64,000 nt of DNA from Acidobacteriota bacterium (GTDB lineage: Bacteria > Acidobacteriota > Blastocatellia > UBA7656), in NCBI GenBank assembly GCA_038040445.1, contig JBBPIG010000003.1:124001-188000 (forward strand), in the 5' to 3' direction. Positions 1,025 through 3,482 of the stretch are shown one piece after another. The stretch's first letter is position 1. Every line of letters begins with the position of its first letter. The notes below the pieces were generated by a model that searched no databases, had not been told where the DNA came from, and worked only from the letters and a program-made list of their open reading frames with translations. The translations under genes and the position numbers were made by a program.

Positions 1025-1669
1025 TTATTTGGATGTCTTCATCTGGGCAAGCATCGCTTTCAGTTTCGCTGTGAACGTTGCTTCGTCTAACCGCGGTGCT
1101 TTTGTCACGCCGTCGAGTTGATGCATCCAGAATTCGGGCGCCGGCGGCTCCTCCTCCCACGTTGCAGCAGTCCCGTACAAAAGATACACATCCCAAGCGA
1201 TGCTTCTCTCAGTCCTGAGAACCCGCTCCCAGAGTTCGCCGGTTTGAGATTCCGCGTCGAGGAAGTAAGAGACTCGCCTGTCTCGAAAGCTATTCGAGAG
1301 CTTTCGCGCTTCGCCGCGGAAGTCACCACCAAAGATGGGAAGCCAGACGACGTAAGCTCTGACTCGATCCTCGGTCACCTTCTTTAGGGTCTTCACTATG
1401 TTGGAGAACCCCCAACGACACATCGGTCAGGTGGGAGAGACAAGAGCAATCAACCGCACCTTGCCCGCGTCGTTCCGAAAGCGTTCCTTCAATTGGTCAA
1501 GGCTGAGGAGTTCGACGGCTCGCGTCTTGCGGACTGCCGCAGCGGAACTGCCAGCTTTCTGCGCCGCGGCGCATGTAGGCGCACTCAGGCCGGCTAGTAT
1601 TGCTGCTAAGACTATCAGGGCTATGATTGCAGGCCACCGCTTCGAGCTGTCTGCGTGTTGCGTTCTCAT
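1025..1669 (-). CDS. Candidate selenoprotein, exported thioredoxin-like UxxC protein
   Basis: Read conventionally, the minus strand holds two open frames (1750-1427 and 1423-1025), but they are in the same frame and separated by one TGA at 1429-1427 plus one Pro codon. Reading TGA as selenocysteine gives one 214-aa protein: an N-terminal signal anchor (hydrophobic AIIALIVLAAILAGL, residues about 15-30), then a thioredoxin-like core in which strand LIALVSPT runs into Sec81-Pro-Met-Cys84, followed by a helix and the strand VRAYVVWLPIF. UPMC sits exactly where a CxxC redox motif belongs, and sequence on both sides looks like one conserved domain. A SECIS-like hairpin lies just downstream. Start chosen at ATG 1669 (GAAGAA upstream); ATG 1687 is an in-frame alternative. 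A simple nonsense pseudogene is the main rival explanation. Confidence 0.8.
1400..1416 (-). promoter_or_regulatory. Candidate bacterial SECIS hairpin
   Basis: On the minus strand, GTTGG (1416-1412) pairs perfectly with CCAAC (1404-1400). A G-T and a G-C pair can extend the stem to 7 bp, leaving the loop GTT. The stem opens 10 nt after the in-frame TGA and the loop G lies about 16-18 nt after it. Known bacterial SECIS elements sit inside the coding sequence right after UGA, with a small G-containing apical loop about 16-37 nt away. Position and shape therefore fit; this was judged by eye, not folded computationally. Confidence 0.65.
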
Positions 1670-2013: not shown

Positions 2014-3288
2014 ATGGATCACGAGGTGCAGCGACGACGGTTCACGGGTCTCTGGCGCCACGGCGCTTTCATGCGGCTGTGGACTGGCCAAACGCTGTCC
2101 GTCTTCGGCTCGCTGATCGGCAGTACGGCGATGGGGTTCACTGCGATTCTCGTCCTTCACGCTACGCCGTTCCAGCTCGGGCTCCTTTCGGCCGCCCGCC
2201 TTGCGCCGGGGTTCCTGACCGGTTTGATCGCGGGCGCCTGGGTGGACCGGCTGCGGCGAAGGCCGATCCTGATCGTTGCCGACATTGGGCGAGCCGCGCT
2301 GCTGGCCACAATTCCGCTGGCGGCGGTCCTTGGCCATCTGCGAATCGAGCAACTCTACATCATTACTTTCCTGGTCAGCATCCTGACGATCTTCTTCGAT
2401 GTCGCGTACCAGTCTTATCTACCCTCGCTGATAGGCCGGAAAGATCTGATCGAGGGCAACAGCAAGCTCTCGGCTAGCGCCTCTGTCGCCGAGGTCAGCG
2501 GGTTCGGCCTGGCTGGCTGGCTCGTTCAGATTTTCACGGCCCCGATTACGATCCTGATCGACGCAATCTCGTTCCTCGCCTCAGCGGTCTGTGTCTCGCT
2601 GATTCGTGTCCCGGAGCAGGCGGCGGTCAGCGACGCACAGCCGAACATGCGCCGCGAGATCGCAGAGGGTTTGCATGCAGTCTGGAGCCATCCGCTTCTA
2701 CGCGCTACAGCAGCATGCATGCTCACACAGGAGTTCTTCGGTGGGATGTACGGCACGCTGGTGGTCTTGTACATGGCGCGCGATCTCGGGTTTGCGCCGG
2801 GCGTCCTCGGCACGATCTGGGCGGTGGGCGGAATCAGCTCGCTCATCGGCGCGATGGTGACCGCCTCGGCGACCCGGCGGTTTGGGATCGGCCCGGCGAT
2901 GATCGTGGGATTGCTAGTGATGGGTACCGCGATGTTCTTCATCCCGCTGGCACAGGGCGCGACGCTCACTGCGGCAGTGTTGCTGCTCATCCAGCAGATC
3001 GGAGGGGATGGCGCAGCGACCATCTACCAGATCAACCAGGTCAGCCTGCGCCAGGCGATCACGCCGGAGCGGTTGCTTGGGCGTGTGAATGCCAGCGCGC
3101 ATTTTCTTGGGTTGGGCGGAACGCTTGCGGGCTCGCTGCTGGGTGGGCTATTGGGCGAGATGATTGGGGTGCGAATGACGCTGTTTCTGGGCGCGTTCGG
3201 CACTGTGTTGTCGGCGCTCTGGCTGGTGCTGTCACCTGTTCGTGAGCTGCGCGCTGCTCCCGCGGCGCTCGCCGAACCGGCAGCCTGA
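2014..3288 (+). CDS. MFS transporter, MFS_3/EntS-like exporter
   Basis: Integral membrane protein of 424 aa with about 12 hydrophobic segments, of the major facilitator superfamily. The loop between helices 2 and 3 carries the MFS signature GAWVDRLRRRP (about residues 74-84). The overall look (short N-terminus WRHGAFMRLWTGQTLSVFGS, and FDVAYQSYLPSLI after helix 4) is that of the MFS_3 group that includes enterobactin exporter EntS and macrolide efflux proteins. Substrate unknown. It stands alone between two palindromic elements, with no regulator next to it. Confidence 0.88.
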   Translation: MDHEVQRRRFTGLWRHGAFMRLWTGQTLSVFGSLIGSTAMGFTAILVLHATPFQLGLLSAARLAPGFLTGLIAGAWVDRLRRRPILIVADIGRAALLATIPLAAVLGHLRIEQLYIITFLVSILTIFFDVAYQSYLPSLIGRKDLIEGNSKLSASASVAEVSGFGLAGWLVQIFTAPITILIDAISFLASAVCVSLIRVPEQAAVSDAQPNMRREIAEGLHAVWSHPLLRATAACMLTQEFFGGMYGTLVVLYMARDLGFAPGVLGTIWAVGGISSLIGAMVTASATRRFGIGPAMIVGLLVMGTAMFFIPLAQGATLTAAVLLLIQQIGGDGAATIYQINQVSLRQAITPERLLGRVNASAHFLGLGGTLAGSLLGGLLGEMIGVRMTLFLGAFGTVLSALWLVLSPVRELRAAPAALAEPAA

Positions 3289-3333
3289 GGTTGTCAAGCT
3301 GAGCGCTTTGCATTCATCGCTCGTTGCTCAGGG

Positions 3334-3420
3334 CTCGTGGTCGGGAAGGTGGGCTTGCCCCCGATGAGCCAGTGCTCTGCTTATAGACAGCGGGGGCAAG
3401 CCCACCTTCCCGACCACGAG
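3334..3420. repeat. Perfect 30-bp inverted repeat
   Basis: Arms 3334-3363 and 3391-3420 are perfect reverse complements (30 bp) around a 27-nt spacer; the core reads GTGGGCTTGCCCCC. It starts about 45 nt after the MFS stop and could fold as a hairpin in its mRNA, but no T-run follows, so it looks like a repeat element rather than a standard terminator. Confidence 0.85.
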
Positions 3421-3482
3421 CCTGAGTTATGCGCGGGTTTGGCCGCGAGTAACACTCCGATGAATCAAGTTGGAGTTCTGGT

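Follow-up and report, generated by a model that had tools for sequence, protein, structure and literature searches.

A covarying hairpin behind an in-frame TGA points to a thioredoxin-like UxxC selenoprotein family in Acidobacteriota

We analysed a stretch of 64,000 nucleotides from an Acidobacteriota bacterium (contig JBBPIG010000003.1, positions 124,001 to 188,000 of the forward strand), which is called the window throughout. A gene on its minus strand is open through a single in-frame TGA, and a hairpin directly follows this codon. The hairpin is very probably a bacterial selenocysteine insertion sequence (bSECIS) element and the gene that of a selenoprotein (probability about 0.95). The assignment is based on sequence, namely the open reading through the TGA, a covarying hairpin that is lost in homologues with cysteine (Cys) at this position, purifying selection, and the presence of the selenocysteine (Sec) machinery. 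It is made certain by the homologues, in which the stem is kept and covaries, since the hairpin as a single sequence is unremarkable.

Results

The stem is retained and covaries in homologues with TGA

The gene product comprises 214 residues counting Sec and is followed by a TAA stop (Table 1). The start was placed at the ATG at 1669, with an alternative in-frame ATG at 1687, and the TGA, which lies in the context SPT-U-PMC-RWGFSN, is the sole interruption of the frame. Homologues were present in 23 of the 162 genomes of the class; at the level of the phylum, a profile search detected them in 46 of 396 sampled genomes. The window genome itself has a single copy. In most homologues, the only internal TGA is found at the codon corresponding to that of the window gene, and some have TGC or TGT there instead (n = 55 and n = 11, respectively, among distinct acidobacterial homologues). 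The TGA is therefore aligned with Cys of homologues, UxxC versus CxxC, as expected for a selenoprotein.

Table 1. Features of the selenoprotein gene and its product in the window
Feature	Position	Strand	Basis
Predicted exported thioredoxin-like UxxC selenoprotein gene	1025..1669	-	Open reading frame (ORF) through single TGA
TGA predicted to be read as Sec (SPT-U-PMC, UxxC motif)	1427..1429	-	TGA or Cys codon in homologues
Probable bSECIS hairpin (stem 1416-1410 / 1406-1400, loop GUU 1409-1407)	1400..1416	-	Covariation in 40 homologues, absence in Cys homologues
Predicted thioredoxin-fold domain, 165 residues	1028..1522	-	AlphaFold2 model and fold matches
Hydrophobic N-terminal segment (putative signal peptide or membrane anchor)	1577..1630, approximate	-	Kyte-Doolittle

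In minus-strand order, the TGA is followed by CCGATGTGTC and then by GTTGGGG-GTT-CTCCAAC, which can form seven pairs (G-C, U-A, U-A, G-C, G-C, G-U, and G-C). The stem begins 10 nt and the apical loop 17 nt from the TGA, and the hairpin region encodes R-W-G-F-S-N. The first-pass annotation of this DNA had proposed a SECIS-like hairpin with a GTTGG/CCAAC stem extendable to 7 bp, a G-containing loop 16-18 nt past the TGA, and RWGFSN as the encoded residues, and each of these features was recovered. Published rules for bSECIS elements comprise a loop of 3-9 nt, a G in its first two positions, the pattern N1-G-[G/U]-N-N2, and a spacing of 16-37 nt (PMC13188914); we further applied an upper stem of 4-16 bp and a minimum free energy of -7.5 kcal/mol or lower. 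The loop can be read as GUU or as G-GUU-C, and the five loop-proximal bases G-GUU-C fit the pattern. The spacing of 17 nt from UGA to loop and the stem of 7 bp fall within the ranges, so that the proposal of a SECIS-like hairpin is supported by the published loop, pattern, and spacing rules.

At least six of the seven pairs were found in the same register in 46 of the 55 TGA homologues versus none of the 11 Cys homologues (Fisher p = 1.6e-7, uncorrected for kinship). Among the other nine TGA homologues, the stem is displaced by 5-6 nt in three, and inspection by eye showed shifted hairpins in most of the remaining six. The annotation had named TGA homologues devoid of a hairpin as the observation that would speak against it, and the homologues proved to be of the opposite kind.

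When 40 elements were aligned, 98.2% of the cells were paired, a percentage that leans upward because the elements were picked for having the stem; six TGA rows of a shifted-stem subgroup were left out of this set though they have at least six of the seven pairs. Five of the seven base pairs had changed on both sides with the pairing kept. The compensatory changes that the annotation had suggested looking for amounted to 39 double-sided changes versus 5.6 in shuffled alignments, and such changes are not produced by the choice of elements. The covariation score was 0.604 versus 0.243 after shuffling. Sliding the alignment by 1-3 columns collapsed the pairing (to 60-72% with one column), and RNAalifold recovered the same stem unprompted. 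In the Cys homologue set, 41.6% of the cells were paired. Eight changes of the Sec/Cys label are required on a maximum-likelihood tree, and well-supported branches force at least seven of these. Of seven independent Sec/Cys pairs, five have the stem with Sec, none shows the opposite, and two are ties.

Some homologues depart from the common arrangement. In the GARRVQ/GARWVQ subgroup (L032, L036, L060, L065, and relatives), two overlapping hairpins 5-6 nt apart are possible, at 13-19/23-29 and 19-24/28-33 with the T of TGA as 0. One member (L087) may have Sec at two positions, as its motif (UPKU) contains two TGA codons; its hairpin lies outside the usual register. Of the three paralogues in one genome (L137, L138, and L139 in G303), two have TGA and one has a Cys codon.

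The hairpin of the window gene alone and the Sec machinery

The SECIS assignment has several weaker points. The stability of the hairpin is at chance level relative to dinucleotide shuffles (z = -0.17, fold of the first 42 nt), and an equally or more stable bSECIS-like hairpin follows 175 of the 2250 TGA triplets in the window (7.8%). The isolated 7-bp stem has -6.7 kcal/mol versus the rule of -7.5 kcal/mol, which is reached in folding context only (-8.2 in a 36-nt fold and -9.9 after masking of the first 11 nt). The phylogenetically independent pairs number only seven, with a sign test p of 0.06. SelB is near-universal in the class (132 of 162 genomes); though required, it is therefore weak evidence, and its co-occurrence was rejected as uninformative.

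A complete 7/7 stem in the exact register follows only 4 of the 2250 TGA triplets of the 64-kb window, and 1.3% of the codon-preserving shuffles of the window gene were as stable as the observed sequence. Preference for another fold had also been listed by the annotation as a reason for doubt. This doubt is warranted when the first 60 nt are folded without constraint, as another structure is then preferred (-12.2 kcal/mol), and longer stretches pair otherwise as well; it is not borne out once the first 9-12 nt are masked, where the SECIS hairpin is the minimum-energy fold. The masking was applied because these nucleotides are inside the ribosome at decoding, with UGA in the A site. Single-sequence folding was dropped as a test of the hairpin, since it is not significant and its result varies with the fold window.

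The genome encodes a tRNA-Sec with the anticodon TCA, as well as SelB, SelA, and SelD (359, 576, and 352 bits). The SelD gene (L095, G000:C21:108415-109344) has an in-frame TGA in CAG-U-AAK followed by a strong hairpin, so that SelD is itself likely a selenoprotein. The organism therefore probably makes at least one other selenoprotein.

Predicted thioredoxin fold, purifying selection, and predicted export

The ratio dN/dS downstream of the TGA was 0.10-0.11 in each of the three pairwise comparisons among the window gene and its two closest relatives; judged by these ratios, the codons past the TGA are under purifying selection. The AlphaFold2 model (24 sequences; mean pLDDT 95.7) places residue 32 of the domain (Sec, modelled as Cys) and the resolving Cys35 at the start of helix 33-48. 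As in the thioredoxin fold, the redox pair is thus predicted to lie where the first long helix begins, following the first core strand. The nearest solved folds are oxidoreductases of the TlpA/ResA/DsbE type and glutathione peroxidases (GPx), with Z of 11-13.5. The Kyte-Doolittle maximum was 2.5 over 18 residues, beginning 67 residues before Sec, and most full-length homologues have a similar N-terminal hydrophobic segment. Two members in genomes of other families (L105 and L106; one Sec, the other Cys) are extended at the N-terminus by a long stretch that matches nothing in Pfam, and lie near an MFS-like gene.

The family is probably undescribed

In Pfam and NCBIfam scans, the core domain of no member reached a curated cut-off. 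The best Pfam match of the window protein was Thioredoxin_4 (13.8 bits versus the cut-off of 23.2), and NCBIfam gave none; one fused member (L017) is above the Thioredoxin_4 cut-off, with a match that extends over both of its domains. A sequence search of the PDB gave weak thioredoxin-like matches only. In the literature we found no description of the window protein's family, nor of MerT-fused selenoproteins in Acidobacteriota. A 2026 review tabulates several UxxC thioredoxin-like families, among them Redoxin family protein, GOS_C, DsbG-like, SaoT, and HUIPC-motif protein (PMC13188914, Table 1). No NF model named in the table matches the window family at E <= 0.1, and the table families with NCBIfam models were excluded as its identity by the profile scans. 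PF08534 is touched by 1 of 24 members of the window family (E = 0.03). Because no Pfam or NCBIfam cut-off is reached, the family is probably undescribed; the Redoxin family protein (PF08534, HEU0032618.1), which was not directly compared, may be the same.

Mercury-type neighbours and fusions

Relatives of MerR, MerT, MerC, or MerA lie near 22 of 54 family sites versus 0 of 39 selB-centred windows from the same phylum (p = 7e-7, uncorrected for kinship, with a few of the search seeds taken from the family windows themselves). These counts come from a seed-based search that replaced a regular-expression scan with some false MerT-like matches. A Cys member was located in a MerR-MerT-fusion-MerA cluster, whose MerA is above the curated cut-off. 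According to Pfam, MerT is fused to a Sec domain in L018, from a genome of the window genome's own family, and to a Cys form in L023, and fusions to heavy-metal (HMA) domains occur in Sec (L020, L066) and Cys (L062) members. L017, likewise from a genome of the window genome's own family, is fused to a DF-family domain. No mer-type gene was found near the window's own locus (L113).

The locus

The window gene stands alone, with a nitrilase-family gene at 104-1024 on one side and an MFS transporter at 2014-3288 on the other. An intergenic palindrome at 1806-1885, whose arms match CAGGCTNAAGCCTGAACTCCATGCTC, is a dispersed intergenic repeat; the arm occurs seven times in the genome, two of these here. 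A strong inverted repeat, GTGGTCGGGAAGGTGGGCTTGCCCCCG..., lies between genes at 3326-3429. The Rfam scan gave no relevant match. Its miRNA matches, which lie on the palindromic repeats far under the gathering scores, were rejected as spurious for the 3326-3429 repeat. A plasmid search gave no match.

Discussion

We propose that SelB-GTP with Sec-tRNA(Sec) would bind the stem-loop 17 nt downstream of the UGA at 1429-1427, and that Sec would be delivered at this codon, with the release factor not ending translation. The product would be a thioredoxin-fold oxidoreductase that is exported or anchored through its N-terminus and has the active site Sec-Pro-Met-Cys, and its redox chemistry would proceed through the selenol/thiol pair.

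We found no evidence that contradicts the selenoprotein reading, and two other explanations of the TGA and the hairpin were considered. It is most improbable that translation truly stops at the TGA or that this codon has decayed, in which case the two halves would be small genes in their own right or together a pseudogene, and the hairpin would be incidental. Although an ATG two codons past the TGA gives an ORF of its own (1423-1025), which gene finders would call separately, and the hairpin alone is within chance, 55 distinct homologues from across the phylum share the TGA at this codon, the predicted thioredoxin fold and active site span it, and purifying selection continues past it. Scarcely more credible is that the hairpin has no RNA function and arises only from the conservation of amino acids (e.g. 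LRGASE) and from codon bias. Codon-shuffled sequence often gives a comparable hairpin in some homologues (fractions up to 0.3), but the stems differ in sequence and in encoded residues (RWGFSN, LRGASE, LQGASA, VRGASA) and are still paired. The excess of double-sided changes over expectation and the loss of the hairpin in Cys homologues, some of which have similar residues, also argue against a by-product.

The function is less settled than the decoding. Judging from neighbourhood and fusion, there is about an even chance that the family serves in the extracytoplasmic handling (binding, reduction, hand-over) of Hg(II) or other soft metals, or in the reduction of the thiols of such transporters. 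The fusions of members to MerT and HMA domains, and their location in mer-like clusters, suggest this job. Mer-type neighbours are absent at 32 of the 54 sites, which weighs against a mercury role, and this role is one of association only. A general extracytoplasmic thiol:disulfide oxidoreductase or peroxidase of the TlpA/ResA or GPx kind, to which the mer neighbourhood would be incidental or secondary, is a serious contender whose chance we put slightly below even. The nearest folds are consistent with it, the invariant Trp-Asp (WD) may resemble the Trp-Asn of GPx, in sequence only, and most sites, including that of the window, lack a mer-type neighbour. The direct MerT and HMA fusions in both Sec and Cys members and the lack of any mer-type gene in the control windows argue against it. 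The broader picture, that of an undescribed family widespread in Acidobacteriota with an exported selenol/thiol pair in Hg(II) or similar soft-metal uptake and detoxification, sometimes fused with MerT or HMA, is offered tentatively, with odds somewhat short of even. Selenols bind Hg(II) very tightly. Together with the MerT and HMA fusions, this makes the use of selenocysteine by bacteria for mercury a directly testable question.

The decoding mechanism is not new, because the element is of the textbook type, whereas the protein family is new as far as libraries and papers show. It is spread over the phylum, usually has Sec, would be split in two by routine gene calling, and includes Cys variants without the hairpin.

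Like the consensus of the bSECISearch model and the SECIS of Escherichia coli fdhF, the window element is a coding-region stem-loop right after the UGA, with a small G-first loop, a G-[G/U] core, and a spacing of 17 nt; it differs in its shorter G-rich upper stem and triloop, and its sequence is unlike that of fdhF. With TlpA/ResA/DsbE (CcmG) the family shares the predicted fold (Z about 11-13.5), the N-terminal anchor or signal, and a redox pair two residues apart, whereas it differs in its low identity (8-18%), the replacement of the first Cys by Sec, and WD-x-Y and W-x-P motifs of its own. The UxxC families of PMC13188914 Table 1 resemble it in the thioredoxin-type fold, Sec as the first residue of UxxC, and probable redox activity. 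The MerT/CopZ fusion-like heavy metal transport selenoprotein (NF045683) and the DF family (seleno)protein (NF049942) are selenoprotein families tied to metal transport, and members of the window family are fused to MerT, HMA, or DF domains; the thioredoxin-like core of the window family is in neither model.
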